Source of the DNA: a virus
DNA: 20,236 nt
Reading direction: 5' to 3' (one strand)
Virus record (IMG/VR): IMGVR_UViG_3300028581_000308
Coordinates: 1 to 20,236 of that record
Part shown: in pieces, positions 3,561 through 15,259 of the stretch
Position numbering within the stretch: position 1 is the first letter of the stretch
Layout of the letters: every line of letters starts with the position of its first letter
The notes under the pieces: generated by a model
Database searches by the model: none
Told to the model about the DNA's origin: nothing
What the model saw: the letters and a program-made list of their open reading frames with translations, nothing else
Program-made: the position numbers and the translations under genes

Positions 3561-4604
3561 ATGCCAGACCTCAATTTCCACGAATTACAGCACATACAGA
3601 AACTACTACAGCAGCAGGGTAGTTTGAAATATATATTTGATGATTTTGTAAAAAAGACCGGAAATTTACTAACACAGTGGAATGATTATCCTTCCGGTGA
3701 TTTGTGGTCACGGAATCAGAACGTTCAGAAAGCCATCGAGGAAGAAATGCAAACCCTCAGAACAAAACTAACTGCAAGCATTGAGAATTACACAACTGAT
3801 GCATGGAACCGAAGCAATTTAAAAAGTGATGAACTGGTGGATGGATTTGTTAAGAACCTTGCATTGAATGATGTTGTAACCAAAGGCATGTATGCCCGGA
3901 ATAACGAAGCGTTACAGGCATTTTTAAAGCGAAAGGTTGACGGTACAACATTATCACAAAGGGTCTGGCATATTGCCGAAGGTGCAAAGGAAAACATTGA
4001 GTTCTATCTTGAATCCGGTTTATCAACCGGGCGTTCAGCAGCTTTAATTAGTCAGGATATAAGGCAACTGTTGCAGAAACCCGATAAACGATTTCACCGA
4101 ATCAGGAATGCAGATGGTAAACTGGTACCATCGCAACCGATGAAAGATTACCATCCCGGCCAAGGCGTTTATCGTAGCAGTTACAAAAATGCTCTCAGGC
4201 TGGCAGCCACCAACACAAACAAAATGTACAGGCTTACCGACCATGAGCGGTGGATGAAACTTGATTTTGTGATTGGCTTTAAAGTGAGCCGGGCAACAAA
4301 CAATTTCGGGCCGTGTGCAATATGTGATGCAATGGTTGGCAATTACCCAAAGACTTATGTATTTACCGGGAATCACCCGTTTTGTATCTGTTATGCAACT
4401 CCGATCCTGATGAATGAAGATGCTTTTATTGATGCTTTGGTTGAAGATGATTTTTCAGGCGTGAAATATGTTGAAGATATACCGGCCAATGGCAGAAAGT
4501 ACATTCAGGATTTGATTGACAATAAAAAGCTTTCAACGGATTCGTATTTGTTGAAGAATAATAAAGGGTTCTTTGATGGAAGCAGGGGAAAATATCGTAC
4601 CTGA
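3561..4604 (+). CDS. Minor head protein, MuF / SPP1 gp7-like
   Basis: Proteins of this family sit inside the prohead near the portal and help assembly or DNA delivery. The 347 residues start with a helical region (about 1-120). They end in the MuF-type core at about 130-285, including the helix-rich ALRLAATNTNKMYRLTDHERW. A Cys/His cluster follows: C252-x2-C255, then H272, C275 and C277 (HPFCIC), a pattern that could bind zinc. The final part resembles the usual end of family members (RKYIQDLIDNKKLSTDSYLLKNN). The 3' end overlaps the next gene, a metallopeptidase, by 29 bases in another frame. In many phages that peptidase domain is, to my knowledge, fused to the C-terminus of the MuF protein, so this pair may be a split form. 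Confidence 0.92.
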   Translation: MPDLNFHELQHIQKLLQQQGSLKYIFDDFVKKTGNLLTQWNDYPSGDLWSRNQNVQKAIEEEMQTLRTKLTASIENYTTDAWNRSNLKSDELVDGFVKNLALNDVVTKGMYARNNEALQAFLKRKVDGTTLSQRVWHIAEGAKENIEFYLESGLSTGRSAALISQDIRQLLQKPDKRFHRIRNADGKLVPSQPMKDYHPGQGVYRSSYKNALRLAATNTNKMYRLTDHERWMKLDFVIGFKVSRATNNFGPCAICDAMVGNYPKTYVFTGNHPFCICYATPILMNEDAFIDALVEDDFSGVKYVEDIPANGRKYIQDLIDNKKLSTDSYLLKNNKGFFDGSRGKYRT

Positions 4605-5499
4605 AAAGAAAATTATTGAGCCGGTTAAACCTGCTATTGCAAAATTTGTTCCCGCAAAAACAATCCAGGAAGCCGAAGCGTGGGCTAAAAAGAATCTCAA
4701 TGTTGAATTTGTCAATTTTAAAGGACTTGATATTGATGTTGCAAATGATATCAATAAAAGCACTTTCAATATTAAAACTTTAATGCCTGATATTAAAACC
4801 AAAGGTATAGGAAATGCTCAACAGGCAAACAAAGCAATGAAAGCCGAAATAGTTGATGAATTCAGGAAAACCGAATGGTATAAGAACGTTGCAGCTAATT
4901 ACAGTGAGGCAGCAGCCGATAAAAGAGCTGTTCAGTTTGCAAATTCACAGGTTTCAAATGTTGGTGGCAATACTGTTGCATGGAGTACCAATAGAGATTC
5001 AGTAAGGCTACCAGGCGGCATTTTGGTTGATGTTTCAAAATACAAAGGTGTTTTTGTAAATGAGAAATATGGTAAGAAAGCGTCAATTATAAACGATGTT
5101 GTTTTAAAAGCCGAAAAATCAGGATTTTACACTAAGGATGCCAAAGGCTTTGGCTATATAATGTCCCACGAAATTGGACACGAAATTGATAAAACCATTG
5201 GATTTAGAAATTCAGATGTGTTTAAAGCAATTTACAAAAAAGAACACGACAAAGGAATTCAGCATGTTATTGAAAACCTGAGCGAATACGGTGCAAACGC
5301 CGGGCATAAAGCAAGTGCAAAGCCGCTTGAATTTATTGCGGAAAGTTGGGCTGAATTTGTAACTTCGCCAAATCCAAGACGTATATCAAAAGAAGTTGGT
5401 GAGGCTATGCTTAAAGAATATCATACCTACTACATGAAAGGGTCTGGTATTAAATTTGATGAATGGAGAAATGAAATATTAAAAACTTTATCAATATGA
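4576..5499 (+). CDS. HExxH zinc metallopeptidase associated with the minor head protein
   Basis: A 307-residue protein with a zincin signature: HEIGH at residues 198-202, followed about 55 residues later by FIAESWAEF, whose Glu is a good candidate for the third zinc ligand. Upstream, residues about 28-62 (KTIQEAEAWAKKNL, FKGLDIDVANDINKS) match a linker domain I know from C-terminal extensions of MuF minor head proteins. There is no signal peptide or membrane segment, so it probably acts in the host cytoplasm or is packaged. ATG 4576 is preferred; TTG 4573 just before it is also possible. Its stop overlaps the next gene in ATGA. It might be a head maturation protease, an internal enzyme ejected with DNA, or a MuF-type effector; the substrate cannot be told from sequence. 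Confidence 0.8.
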   Translation: MEAGENIVPEKKIIEPVKPAIAKFVPAKTIQEAEAWAKKNLNVEFVNFKGLDIDVANDINKSTFNIKTLMPDIKTKGIGNAQQANKAMKAEIVDEFRKTEWYKNVAANYSEAAADKRAVQFANSQVSNVGGNTVAWSTNRDSVRLPGGILVDVSKYKGVFVNEKYGKKASIINDVVLKAEKSGFYTKDAKGFGYIMSHEIGHEIDKTIGFRNSDVFKAIYKKEHDKGIQHVIENLSEYGANAGHKASAKPLEFIAESWAEFVTSPNPRRISKEVGEAMLKEYHTYYMKGSGIKFDEWRNEILKTLSI

Positions 5500-10130: not shown

Positions 10131-10658
10131 ATGGCAGCAGAAAAATATGCTTATGGTATTGCATCCGTAAAATTCGGAATACCAACAGGATTAAGCACCA
10201 TGCCTGGCACGTTGACAGCATGGGCGCAGACCGTTCGTGGTTCTTTGACTCTTTCAGAAGATGAAGCACAGACCAAAGAATTTAACGTTGAAGAAGCAAC
10301 CACCGCAGTGAAAAGAATTGTTACATCGGTCGGCTCGCTTGCAATTAAATGGAGAGCATACGACCTCACACCGTCATTGGTGGTAGTTGTAAAAGGTGGA
10401 ACAGCCGGAACAGCCGGTTCGGGTGGAACAGCAAAACTTACTTATGCTGGTCCGGTATCGGTTACAACCTTGGAACTTGCATTGGAAATTACTACTACAA
10501 ACGGAGTTGTTTTTAACATTTACAAAGCATCTGTTTTGGCTCGCTTCGATGGTGGAGTAAGTGCTGAAAGTTTGCTTGAAATGGAAGTAAATGCAACAGC
10601 ATTAGACCCTGGAGCAGGCACTTCGCCGTACATGATTTCCTTACCAAATCCGGCTTAG
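10131..10658 (+). CDS. Major tail tube protein
   Basis: A 175-residue beta-rich protein that polymerises into the tail tube. Residues about 35-65 (RGSLTLSEDEAQTKEFNVEE) and 140-160 (FDGGVSAESLLEMEVNATAL) fit the two beta-sheet halves of tube proteins. A flexible Gly/Thr-rich loop at about 89-101 contains a repeated GGTA motif; the matching 11-base repeats are at 10395-10405 and 10422-10432. It is followed by a terminator before the chaperone gene, as often seen for this highly expressed gene. The position between the tail terminator and the G/T chaperones supports the call. Confidence 0.86.
   Translation: MAAEKYAYGIASVKFGIPTGLSTMPGTLTAWAQTVRGSLTLSEDEAQTKEFNVEEATTAVKRIVTSVGSLAIKWRAYDLTPSLVVVVKGGTAGTAGSGGTAKLTYAGPVSVTTLELALEITTTNGVVFNIYKASVLARFDGGVSAESLLEMEVNATALDPGAGTSPYMISLPNPA
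10395..10432 (+). repeat. Short direct repeat in the tube gene
   Basis: GGTGGAACAGC occurs exactly at 10395-10405 and 10422-10432, with a diverged copy of the GGAACAGC core between them. It encodes a Gly/Thr-rich loop in the tail tube protein. Confidence 0.7.
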
Positions 10659-10698
10659 TGATTTTTGATTTTAGTATAGTTTAGGTTAATGTATCGAG

Positions 10699-10729
10699 AA
10701 GGCTGGCCTTAAACAGTCAGCCTTTTTTT
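10699..10729 (+). terminator. Intrinsic terminator after the tail tube gene
   Basis: AAGGCTG (10699-10705) pairs with CAGCCTT (10718-10724), followed by seven T (10723-10729). It lies 40 bases after the tube stop and 11 bases before the chaperone start. That is too close for a new promoter to fit, so the tail genes probably depend on read-through. Confidence 0.85.
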
Positions 10730-10740
10730 AAAGTCTTTTT

Positions 10741-11250
10741 ATGGAAAACATAGAATATCAAGCAGGTTTGATATTAGTTGAAGACGGGATTCAAATTAAA
10801 GTACCTACGTTTTTTGGAAGGAAAACTACCCTAACCATAAAACCATTGAAGCCAGGAACTATTGTTCGTATCGGAATGGAAGCAAATAAGTTGGAAGCTA
10901 TCAACAGCGAAGCAAACATGATTCAGGAGTTGCTTTCAAAATCGGATAATATTAAATGCATGGCAGCTATTGTTGCTCATGCTTTGGTAAACCAGGAAAT
11001 AACAAAAAAATGGAAGTTCAGGTATTACCAGTGGCTTATGCTTAACAAGGTTGAGAACATGAAGTATTTGTATTCATACGTGAATCTTGTTTACAGGCAA
11101 ATGTCCTCAGAACACTTTTTTTTTATTATGGCATTAACGCCAGCGATGAACTACCTGACCAAACGGAAGGAGAACACAAAGGCGGAAAAACCTTTTGGGG
11201 AACAATCGGATATATCCAGAAAACCTTCGGACTCAGCCACAGGCAAGTAA
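10741..11250 (+). CDS. Tail assembly chaperone G (zero-frame product)
   Basis: A 169-residue, mainly helical protein directly after the tube and before the tape measure, the invariant place of the lambda gpG-type chaperone. It binds the tape measure and prepares it for tube assembly. Residues about 1-50 hold a beta/alpha start (ILVEDGIQIKVPTFFGRKTT). The helical part at about 60-125 follows, ending in SSEHFFF. The tail after the nine-T run (IMALTPAMNYLTKRKE...) is basic and looks unrelated to its neighbours. The overlapping frame continues through a better-looking domain; see the frameshift entry. ATG 10741 has no Shine-Dalgarno sequence. Confidence 0.83.
   Translation: MENIEYQAGLILVEDGIQIKVPTFFGRKTTLTIKPLKPGTIVRIGMEANKLEAINSEANMIQELLSKSDNIKCMAAIVAHALVNQEITKKWKFRYYQWLMLNKVENMKYLYSYVNLVYRQMSSEHFFFIMALTPAMNYLTKRKENTKAEKPFGEQSDISRKPSDSATGK
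11116..11124 (+). promoter_or_regulatory. Slippery nine-T site for a -1 ribosomal frameshift
   Basis: Nine T in a row. In the zero frame the codons are TTT TTT TTT, preceded by CAC, so T-TTT-TTT is an exact X-XXY-YYZ slippery heptamer. The -1 frame is open from 11055 to 11387, and this is the only good slippery site in that overlap. A small stem TGGC/GCCA (11129-11132 with 11139-11142) begins five bases downstream and could help, although it is weak. Confidence 0.82.
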
Positions 11251-11387
11251 TGTGGGAAGAAAGTTGGATAAACCTGACAATGAAAATGAACGACATGCCT
11301 TATTACAGTTACGGAAAACAAGAAAAGGTAAAGTCAGGAACGATTGAAGATTTGAAAAACAACTTTAGCAAGTACATACAGAAATGA
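11124..11387 (+). CDS. gpT-like extension read after -1 frameshift (GT chaperone)
   Basis: After slipping at the nine-T site the ribosome reads TAT TAT GGC onward in the -1 frame to TGA at 11385-11387. This adds 87 residues to the first 128 of G, giving a GT fusion of about 215. The segment reads as a sensible domain: YYGINASDELPD, then GGKTFWGTIGYIQKTFGLSH and WEESWINLTMKMNDMPYYSY, typical of gpT-type domains with paired Trp and a MPYY end. GT recruits tube subunits to the tape measure. The frame stays open back to a TGA at 11052. An alternative is separate reinitiation at ATG 11250 (TAATG), which would give only 45 residues. The stop overlaps the tape measure start in ATGA. Confidence 0.8.
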   Translation, partial: YYGINASDELPDQTEGEHKGGKTFWGTIGYIQKTFGLSHRQVMWEESWINLTMKMNDMPYYSYGKQEKVKSGTIEDLKNNFSKYIQK

Positions 11388-14300
11388 GTGCAATATATTT
11401 CGATGCAAGGATTGACGGGGCACAGTTACAGAAAGATATTACAAATATCAACCAGCAATTAAACAGAATCACCCAGTCAGTAAAAAAGGAAGGTAATGAA
11501 ATGGATTTGCTTGCTAATCGTATTGGATTGGCATTTGCAGGTGCGTTTACAGCATTTAGCGGAGTTCAAATCATTAAAGATGTTGCAAGAGTTCGTGGAG
11601 AATTCCAGCAGTTAGAGGTTGCCTTTGAAACCATGTTGGGAAACAAGGTAAAGGCAGACCAATTGATGGCAGAAGTTGTTGAGTTTGCATCAAGAACGCC
11701 TTTCACTTTACAGGATGTTGCAACCGGAGCCAAACAGTTACTTGCATACGGAATAGAAGCTGAGAATGTCTTACCAACCTTAAAATCAATGGGTGATGTT
11801 TCAGCGGGATTATCCGTACCAATTGAACGGTTAATCCTGAATTATGGTCAGGTTCGCACTCAGCTTAAAATGACAGGAAAAGAACTTCGCGATTTTCAGG
11901 TTGCGGGTGTTCCAATCGTTGCAGAATTGGCAAAGAATCTTGGCGTAATGGAAACTGACATTGAAGGAATGGTTTCAGCAAGCAAAATCGGTTTTGACGA
12001 TGTTGAGAAAGCATTCAGGACAATGACAAGTCAGGGTGGCCGTTTTAATGACCTGATGGACAAGCAGGCCAAAACAATAACAGGACTTGCTTCCAACTTT
12101 TCCGATGCCTGGGATAAAATGCTAAACAGTATTGGTAAGCAAAATGAAGGTGTTATTACCGATAGCATTAAAGCAGCAACCGAATTAGTCAACAATTACG
12201 AAGAAGTATTAAAAGTGCTTACAATACTCGCTGTAACTTATGGAAGCTATAAAGCAGTAGTTATCGCAGCCGGTATTGCTCAGAAAACAGCAGCTACATA
12301 CGGAGTATTTGATGTAGCGACAAAGAAATTGCAAATAAGTGCAACCCTAAAAGCAGCAGTAGCGCAGAACTCGCTTAATACAGCAATGAAAGCGAACCCT
12401 ATTGGTTTTATCATTGGCGCCATTGGTGCGCTTGTTAGCATATTGTCAATTTACGGAAGCAAAACAGATGAAGTCGCAGGTGTTTCCTCAAAGTTCACTC
12501 AAAACTTGGGTGAAGAAAAAAAGGCAATAGGACAGGCGTTTGAAGCAGTAAAAAATGCGAAAAATGGAACAGAGGACAGAGCAAAGGCCATTGCATTTGT
12601 CAATGAAAAGTATAAAGACTATCTGCCAAACCTACTGACAGAAGCATCCAATTTAAAGGAAGTTGAAAAGGCGCAGAATTTAGTTACCACAGCAGTTGCC
12701 AAAACATTGGCATTTAAGGCACAGGAAGAACAGTTGGGCGATTTAAAGGAAAGAACAACCGGAGCATGGACAGATTTTTATAATGCCATTGATAAGTCGG
12801 TAAAAGGACTGACAAGCGAACAGCAGGGAAAAATCAAGGCCATGATGGAAGAATATGCTCGGGGCGTTAAAGAGTGGTCAGGCATGAGTACAATTTCCAG
12901 CGAATTCGAAAAACTTGCAGGGAAGAAACTTGGAGCATTTGCATTTAACGATTTGGATTCTGCATTTAAGGCGGTAAAAAGATCTGAGAGAGAAGTTATC
13001 GTTACGACGAAAGAACTAAAAACTGAATATGATTCCTACCTAAAAGCATTAGGAATTGGAGAAAGTGTTCCAGAACCGACAGTTTTGAAAACCGTTAACG
13101 AAAGAATTGTTGAAACAAACAATTTGCTTGAAACAGCAAAAGTAAAATTGACAGAACTTATGACATCCGGTTCAACGGCAACCGACAAAGATTTAATTGA
13201 CCAGAACGCACAAATCAAAGAGTATGAAGAAAAGCTGGTATTACTTACAGGAGTAAGCAAACAGGTTAGTAAGGCATTGCTTAAAGAACAACAGGAAAGG
13301 TTTGAAGGTGAAGTGGATTTTGCAGCACAGGAAATTGAGTTACAGAGAAGCGTTGAAGCATCAAGGATTGCAATTATGCAAGAAGGTACTGAAAGACAGA
13401 AGAAGGAAACTGAGGCAGCTTTTCAGGATCAGCTTGATTCCATTGAGAAGCAGAAAGAGGAATACTTGAAAATATACAATGCAAAAACCGGATTGAAGCC
13501 AGGAGATAATGGTTACGTTACAGAATTGCCCATTGAAGCATTTGAACAATTCGACACCCTTAGAATTAATGCAGAGATTGACAAGAACCAAAAGATTGAA
13601 AAAATCAACGAAGATTCTGCAAATGCGATAAAAGCAATTTGGGACAATGTAAATGACGTTTACCTTACCGATACTCAAAGGACAATCAAGCAGATAAACG
13701 ACCATTACGATTCGCTTGTTGAAGAAACCATAAAGATTGACCCGACTGCAGATATTTCAAAAATCAACGAAGCAAGAGGAAAGGCTACAACGGAAGCAGT
13801 TATTAATTCGCAGATTGGAATTCTTGAATTTGAGGAACAGATTGCCATGCAAAGGGCAGAAATTTCCACTCAGGGTTTTAATAGGGAATTTGAAATTGAG
13901 AAAAAGAAACTTGGTATTGCAAGAAAAACCGCAGAGGAAAAAATTAAAATTTTATCAGAATCTGACGAAGTTATAAATGCTCAGGAAATAGAGCGTTTAA
14001 AACTATTCATTGAAGCAACTGACGACGGATTGGCTAAACTTAAAACTGAAAATATACTTGGGTACATTGACGGTGTAAACAGTGGCCTTGGAATGATGAA
14101 TCAATTATTGCAAGAGCAGGGTGCAATAAGTGAGGCCAACGTAGAAAATTTACAAAATGCTCAACAGGCGCTTTCTGCTTTATCGCAGGTAGCATCTGGT
14201 AATTATATCGGTGCAGCATTTTCGGTTATAACAATGATTGCATCCGGTTTTGAATCGATGGAAGTTGCGTTATCTGAATTGTTCACAAAACTGAGGGAAG

Positions 14301-15259
14301 AAATCGAAAGCATCAAAAGTGCGATTGAATTGGCAAATAAAACCCTTGGGAATATTGGCAATGGCAACGATTTAAAGTCGATTGATAACACGATTAAAAA
14401 ACTGAGAGAATTAACAGCAGCAGCAGTTGATTTAAACAAGAAAACTGCAAATGTTAATTTCTATGGTGAAGGTGGTAATTGGTTTGGAGAAATGAACCAG
14501 ATAATGAACCCTGCAAAGCCATTAACTGAATATCTCGCTGAAATGAGAAAGGAAATTCCTATTCTCGTTAACAAGTTGCTTTATGGAACGCTTACTGCAG
14601 AACAGAAAAAAGCAATTGAAGAAACGCTTAACAGCTACAATTCCATTATAGAATCAATTGATGGTACTATCAATAAGTTAACAGGAACATCGACGAACGA
14701 ACTTGCTGATGCAATGGTAGCAGCATTTGAGGCCGGTGAAGGTGCAGCAGTTAAGTGGGGAGAAACAGTTGATGATATAATAAAGAATATCATCCTTAAA
14801 CAGCTTACTTCTCAGTTTTTAGTTGCTCCAATCCAAAATGCCTTAACACAGTTTGCTGATAATTCGTCAGACGGTGTTCAAGTCTACGATATTCAAGATT
14901 TAGAGACAGCCCTCAATAAAGCTTTTATCGATGGAAAATTGCAGTATGAGGCAGCAATGAAGGTACTTGAAGGTTTTGGTATTGATAGTAAAGCTACCGT
15001 AGAAAGTTCTCAGCAGGGAATTAAGGGTTCTTTCCAAAGCCTTACAGAAGAAACCGGAGGAATGATTGCAGGTCAGTTTTTTGCTTTCAGGGAGTTACAG
15101 CAAAAGAATTATGATACTTCATTAATGATGCTAGATTCAATCAATCAGACCGTAGGGCATTTGGCAGAGATTGCCAAAAATACAAAGCACAATGTCCGGT
15201 TGGAAGCTATTGAAAATGGGATAAACAGTATGAACACCATTTTAAAGGAAAGGTTATAA
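11384..15259 (+). CDS. Tape measure protein
   Basis: At 1291 residues the largest complete gene here; it sets tail length and is ejected through the tube. The N-terminal domain at about 75-235 matches the TIGR02675-type tape measure domain, with AFETMLGNKVKADQ, FASRTPFTLQDVATGAKQLL and the later MTGKELRDFQVAG. Hydrophobic helices are visible at about 274-300, 338-358 (PIGFIIGAIGALVSILSIYG) and 939-955, as expected for a protein that can enter membranes. Long charged coiled-coil stretches fill about 550-900. With the common rule of about 1.5 Angstrom per residue the tail would be near 190 nm, an estimate only. It overlaps the GT frame in ATGA and the next gene in TAATG. Confidence 0.97.
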   Translation: MSAIYFDARIDGAQLQKDITNINQQLNRITQSVKKEGNEMDLLANRIGLAFAGAFTAFSGVQIIKDVARVRGEFQQLEVAFETMLGNKVKADQLMAEVVEFASRTPFTLQDVATGAKQLLAYGIEAENVLPTLKSMGDVSAGLSVPIERLILNYGQVRTQLKMTGKELRDFQVAGVPIVAELAKNLGVMETDIEGMVSASKIGFDDVEKAFRTMTSQGGRFNDLMDKQAKTITGLASNFSDAWDKMLNSIGKQNEGVITDSIKAATELVNNYEEVLKVLTILAVTYGSYKAVVIAAGIAQKTAATYGVFDVATKKLQISATLKAAVAQNSLNTAMKANPIGFIIGAIGALVSILSIYGSKTDEVAGVSSKFTQNLGEEKKAIGQAFEAVKNAKNGTEDRAKAIAFVNEKYKDYLPNLLTEASNLKEVEKAQNLVTTAVAKTLAFKAQEEQLGDLKERTTGAWTDFYNAIDKSVKGLTSEQQGKIKAMMEEYARGVKEWSGMSTISSEFEKLAGKKLGAFAFNDLDSAFKAVKRSEREVIVTTKELKTEYDSYLKALGIGESVPEPTVLKTVNERIVETNNLLETAKVKLTELMTSGSTATDKDLIDQNAQIKEYEEKLVLLTGVSKQVSKALLKEQQERFEGEVDFAAQEIELQRSVEASRIAIMQEGTERQKKETEAAFQDQLDSIEKQKEEYLKIYNAKTGLKPGDNGYVTELPIEAFEQFDTLRINAEIDKNQKIEKINEDSANAIKAIWDNVNDVYLTDTQRTIKQINDHYDSLVEETIKIDPTADISKINEARGKATTEAVINSQIGILEFEEQIAMQRAEISTQGFNREFEIEKKKLGIARKTAEEKIKILSESDEVINAQEIERLKLFIEATDDGLAKLKTENILGYIDGVNSGLGMMNQLLQEQGAISEANVENLQNAQQALSALSQVASGNYIGAAFSVITMIASGFESMEVALSELFTKLREEIESIKSAIELANKTLGNIGNGNDLKSIDNTIKKLRELTAAAVDLNKKTANVNFYGEGGNWFGEMNQIMNPAKPLTEYLAEMRKEIPILVNKLLYGTLTAEQKKAIEETLNSYNSIIESIDGTINKLTGTSTNELADAMVAAFEAGEGAAVKWGETVDDIIKNIILKQLTSQFLVAPIQNALTQFADNSSDGVQVYDIQDLETALNKAFIDGKLQYEAAMKVLEGFGIDSKATVESSQQGIKGSFQSLTEETGGMIAGQFFAFRELQQKNYDTSLMMLDSINQTVGHLAEIAKNTKHNVRLEAIENGINSMNTILKERL

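Follow-up and report, generated by a model that had tools for sequence, protein, structure and literature searches.

A lambda-type G/GT tail chaperone gene with a nine-T junction in a siphophage-like viral record, and a possible change of slippage mechanism among its relatives

The region from position 10741 to position 11387 of the viral record IMGVR_UViG_3300028581_000308 (the window, i.e., the whole record of 20,236 bases) is almost certainly a lambda-type G/GT tail assembly chaperone gene. Most of its product would be the zero-frame protein G, and a minority product, GT, would carry the T domain encoded in the -1 frame, joined at a run of nine Ts (SSEHFFF/YYGIN, the slash marking the junction). 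In the clade with nine Ts (T9), we give a slight preference to transcriptional slippage, with an mRNA carrying ten Us (U10), as the main route to GT, judging from the sequences compared here. Relatives with 4 to 7 Ts would instead use ribosomal -1 slippage aided by a 3′ stem-loop, and the same gene appears, from this comparison, to have changed mechanism more than once.

The window encodes a siphophage-like structural module with terminase, portal, head, tail and tape-measure genes, and its nearest named relatives, as judged by the tape measure and the T domain, mostly infect Bacteroidota (Riemerella, Bacteroides and Porphyromonas). Two overlapping ORFs lie between the genes for the tube and the tape measure (Table 1), the second in the -1 frame, as in lambda, and the tape measure ATG overlaps the TGA stop of T. 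The initial annotation had recognised this location as that of a lambda-type G/GT site, and synteny agrees, the tube gene being assigned, probably correctly, by its position.

Table 1. Features of the G/GT region and its neighbours (positions in the window).
Feature	Coordinates	Strand	Basis or remark
Probable tail tube (major tail) protein gene	10131..10658	+	5′ of G; phrog_6767 match (function not named), E 1e-22
G, zero-frame tail assembly chaperone, 169 aa	10741..11250	+	ORF; N-terminal part matches phrog_12247; fold
Open -1 frame, full extent, 110 codons	11055..11387	+	Frame reading
Nine-T run, codons TTT TTT TTT after CAC	11116..11124	+	Sequence; conserved length
Slippery heptamer T_TTT_TTT in zero-frame phase, the sole strict one in the overlap	11118..11124	+	Heptamer scan
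T domain, -1 frame after the switch, 87 aa, stop at 11385-11387	11124..11387	+	phrog_11996 match
Region of the stimulator stem of T4/T6/T7 relatives	11125..11190	+	Weak fold in the window (z -1.58), not clade-conserved
T-frame ATG overlapping the TAA stop of G (TAATG), would open a 45-aa ORF	11250..11252	+	Sequence; unlikely start
Tape measure protein gene	11384..15259	+	phrog_9959, E 5e-162; Pfam TMP_3

The phrog_12247 family is also matched by most of the related G proteins. Foldseek searches with the AlphaFold model of G (pLDDT 78) retrieved several named frameshifted tail chaperones with probabilities up to 1.00, none with an E value below 0.001. The sequences of the window, unlike those of lambda, are too diverged for a Pfam match; PDB sequence and fold searches, as well as a structure search with the model of T, returned nothing useful. 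By the known lambda scheme, the tape measure protein would be coated by G and by the G part of GT, with tube subunits recruited through the T part.

Relatives were collected with the tape-measure N-terminus, then the T domain, as baits, leading to 244 loci with a T domain; the tape-measure N-terminus worked as a bait, and a search of viral contigs with the G protein alone gave no matches. The T domain is conserved in relatives, with identities of 12 to 63%. A G ORF precedes T, with T in the -1 frame, in 241 of the 244 loci, and the other three (L022, L080 and L156) present single-frame G-T ORFs. In the non-redundant set, T lies in the -1 frame in all 139 loci, three further loci having G and T in one frame. 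The -1 segment had been described initially as coherent and gpT-like, with an alignment of relatives for both frames proposed as a check; the conserved T domain and its recurrent -1 position agree with that description. The junction is conserved in the clade of the window (HFFFIMAL in G, and FFYYGIN in the -1 frame of L025), and relatives carry a slippery site at the homologous place in the overlap, as expected for a gene of the lambda type. Synteny, the conserved T domain, the one-frame fusions and the fold resemblance strongly support a G/GT gene with a -1 change at the T run; it is homology that makes the case.

Two of the single-frame ORFs (L022:2287-2997 and L080:1773-2504) match phrog_11996 nearly end to end. 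The third, in L156, has TTTTTTTGGGG at 1197-1207, where its near relative L172 has TTTTTTTGGG and two frames; L156 may be a natural locked fusion or a one-base indel in the record at the run. Three loci with the closest or near-closest tape measures (L023, L024 and L026; 57-69% identity to the window) have no G/T pair directly upstream of the tape measure and no T domain in their records, which are possibly fragments.

The initial annotation considered that T has no useful start of its own, a statement that has to be corrected, as an ATG in the T frame overlaps the stop of G. T might then be a separate protein produced by reinitiation at this overlap, and L038 and L043 show similar overlaps, located at the same MW motif. 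However, the invariant T residues and half of the conserved T domain are located upstream of this ATG, one-frame G-T fusions exist, and the stretch between the run and the T core contains no ATG in 124 of 126 relatives and no ATG, GTG or TTG in 117 of them. We consider reinitiation very improbable and reject it on this survey of start codons. Even less credible is an artefact, i.e., a real single ORF that an indel error at the Ts has split, or gene decay. Homopolymers are error-prone and L156 resembles a variant of one base at a run of this kind, but independent contigs, those of the clade of the window among them, share both the two-frame layout and T9, a conservation that contradicts this explanation and led to its rejection.

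The codons at the junction are CAC TTT TTT TTT ATT. Because the run begins at a codon boundary, it holds one strict tandem heptamer only, T_TTT_TTT, in phase with the X_XXY_YYZ pattern of ribosomal -1 frameshifting. Both the heptamer within the nine-T run and the 110 open codons of the -1 frame had been correctly read in the initial annotation. Its suggestion of more than one slipping register did not survive: a slip of one base at any point of the run yields the identical peptide HFFFYYG. With the G peptide fixed and the codon usage of the window, 0.5% of synonymous draws keep the -1 frame free of stops between 11055 and the stop of G. Canonical in-phase heptamers are frequent in the window (44 per 5094 codons), so that the heptamer by itself is weak evidence. 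An upstream candidate, the in-phase A_AAA_AAA at 11004, was discarded as unproductive because a stop interrupts the -1 frame upstream of 11055.

The T run at the junction varies in length among the 139 non-redundant loci: 4 (64 loci), 6 (40), 9 (28), 7 (4) and 3, 5 or 8 (one each, the run of 8 being off the expected position), and no run is longer than nine. It is exactly nine across the whole clade of the window and in all 28 loci of the T9 class; the junction thus presents a length-conserved A/T run of about nine bases, as expected for transcriptional slippage. This length occurs in three codon phases: xxT TTT TTT TTN in 22 loci, TTT TTT TTT after CAC or CAG in the five loci that form the clade of the window (support 98) and GTT TTT TTT TAC in one locus. 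A preceding codon with a final T goes with TTC, TTA, TTG or TAC as the closing codon of the run, any other with TTT, and the length is nine both ways. Codon usage with fixed peptides would put about 4.6 of the 28 loci at nine, runs of 8 and 10 being expected too; as the T9 class was chosen for being nine, this figure is supportive and not a clean test. On this expectation, amino-acid constraint was judged insufficient as the cause of the exact nine. The presence or absence of T9 requires eight changes on the tree, many branches of which are weakly supported, so that the number of T9 origins is uncertain. Many relatives of the T4 class (L007, L021, L061, L091 and others) have non-canonical N_NNT_TTT sites, mostly G_GAT_TTT, which do not follow X_XXY_YYZ, and they keep the -1 layout and a downstream stem. 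A second nine-T run is located at 734-742 in the gene for the terminase large subunit (EHFFFLITGG), where slippage would be wasteful.

A 3′ stimulator is a usual aid to ribosomal frameshifting and not a strict need, and lambda-type sites can lack one. In the T6, T7 and T4 relatives, a stem with a long loop can form directly 3′ of the run. The mean duplex z is -2.86 for T6, -3.76 for T7, -2.70 for T4 and -0.21 for T9, control stretches 70 nt further on being close to 0 (Mann-Whitney p 4e-9, relatedness being ignored in these class statistics); the folding energy follows the same pattern between classes. In the T6/T7 stem, 92.8% of the cells are paired, compared with 49-63% in slid alignments, and 18 cells are changed on both sides. 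RNAalifold predicted nine pairs, four of them with compensatory changes, in subset A8, which was chosen for a single register of the 3′ arm, a choice that favours the stem somewhat; it found no structure in the full T6 alignment because the 3′ arm occupies two registers. The T4 stem is 79.8% paired, compared with 31-48% when slid, counts that lean towards the stem because the T4 rows were picked for a significant duplex.

By contrast, the same positions are 52.8% paired in twelve T9 sisters of the T6 clade, compared with 44-59% when slid, with no covariation. The T6 stem is the stronger one in all comparable cases of hand-picked sister contrasts, which are indicative only, and a pair test on the starred branches had two pairs only and no power. 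The fold of the window is weak over 66 nt (Table 1), some 55-nt windows reaching z -3.3; it is absent from the clade members L104, L106 and L118 (z near 0) and appears weakly (-1.52), in another form, in L025. No conserved 3′ stimulator was found in the clade of the window and the T9 sisters, and T9 and T6 are not clearly distinguished by any structure upstream of the run. Two T9 loci, L038 and L043, are exceptions with a significant stem. The three T7 relatives tested that have a single T_TTT_TTT all possess the stem, whereas the clade of the window shares the single T_TTT_TTT but has nine Ts and lacks a conserved stem.

We propose that, in the T9 clade, the switch would be made mainly during transcription, RNA polymerase adding one U at U9, and that normal translation of the U10 mRNA would then produce GT, one inserted U in the run leading exactly to the T frame. 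Nine is a known threshold length: runs of nine A or T allow efficient slippage of bacterial RNA polymerase in vivo (PMC5009743), dnaX of Thermus relies on RNA-polymerase slippage at a nine-base run (PMC1088944), and the E. coli enzyme slips preferentially at T runs, with insertions more favoured than deletions (PMC6260861). Several observations count against a transcriptional route: L038 and L043 combine T9 with a stem, a weak fold exists in the window itself, and a second T9 is present in the terminase gene. Moreover, slippage seems to be suppressed in some AT-rich bacteria (PMC1088944).

The main competitor, to which we assign a substantial probability somewhat short of even, is ribosomal -1 slippage on U_UUU_UUU alone, the tRNA-Phe in the P and A sites slipping back by one base and T9 needing no 3′ stem. 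A T9 run necessarily holds an in-phase T_TTT_TT heptamer, making ribosomal slippage possible at every T9; a canonical heptamer is in phase at the junction, relatives clearly use slippage on a heptamer with a stem, and G/GT of lambda is ribosomal (PMC5009743). Phase-2 T9 runs even contain two overlapping heptamers, but a double heptamer as the cause of T9 was rejected since it does not fit phases 0 and 1. Ribosomal slippage alone leaves unexplained the exact nine in all three codon phases, as well as the stem kept by single-heptamer T7 relatives and lacking in the single-heptamer clade of the window. The initial annotation had proposed a programmed -1 frameshift: a G/GT gene whose long form arises by a -1 change at the T run is retained, whereas the ribosomal route is less certain: the 3′ stem that covaries where runs are shorter is not conserved in the T9 clade of the window, and the length of nine recurs in three phases, which suits slippage by RNA polymerase no less well. 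Slippage by RNA polymerase and by the ribosome may also act together, and either would yield HFFFYYG. We infer from these comparisons that slippage occurs, that it is transcriptional, the ratio of G to GT and the roles of the proteins. By a small balance of probability, the G/GT family has switched repeatedly between a ribosomal mode (heptamer and 3′ stem) and a transcriptional one (T9, stem lost).

Few recoding events of tailed phages are as conserved as the G/GT frameshift, which is generally called ribosomal. G/GT production by a ribosomal -1 shift is already known across tailed phages, the lambda type being conserved among them (PMC5009743, citing Xu, Hendrix and Duda 2004). The gene described here resembles that of lambda in its fusion, inferred to be a minority product, and differs in its T9 site, which replaces G_GGA_AAG, and in a mechanism that is possibly transcriptional in the clade of the window. 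The Bacteroidota phages CRP19 and PJN03 (Riemerella), Versailles and BV01/p00 (Bacteroides) and phage005 (Porphyromonas) share the gene order and a homologous -1 T domain, but their T runs are short, with sites A_AAT_TTT (Riemerella), G_GGT_TTT (Versailles), C_CCT_TTT (BV01) and G_GAT_TTT (phage005). The nine-base A/T run recalls dnaX of Thermus thermophilus, and the fusion of two ORFs by insertion of one nucleotide in a U run recalls mxiE of Shigella; unlike the phage chaperone gene, in which slippage is deduced, these are cellular or plasmid genes with measured slippage (PMC1088944, PMC5009743). Our literature search, mainly in open-access sources with few subscription journals, retrieved no description of G/GT for phages of Bacteroidota, nor any account of a tail chaperone that uses transcriptional slippage.

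Relatives of dnaX use either RNA polymerase or the ribosome (PMC1088944, PMC5009743). If the T9 branch uses RNA polymerase, it would provide a phage counterpart of the split between the dnaX genes of E. coli and Thermus, with several natural replicates. This would suggest selection on the G:GT ratio rather than on the machinery, with the stimulator stem being lost where the run lengthens to nine. In most of the phage records inspected, G and T are listed as separate hypothetical proteins or are unannotated, and the layout described here supplies an annotation rule for such pairs.

Two other observations were made in the window. A segment of the gap between the probable tube gene and G (10658-10732, + strand) gives a full-length match, below threshold, to the Rfam family RF04319 (BTncRNA_FopS, a Bacteroidetes sRNA family; 33.5 bits for a gathering cut-off of 56, E 0.001-0.005). 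This element, which ends in a terminator-like hairpin followed by T7, was not seen in 11 related loci. Finally, the head-morphogenesis gene (3561-4604) is overlapped by an ORF in another frame (4573-5499) with a HEIGHE metallopeptidase motif, the pair having a weak Pfam match to ATLF, below the cut-off. These two ORFs match different parts of phrog_21401 and may therefore correspond to one protein elsewhere.
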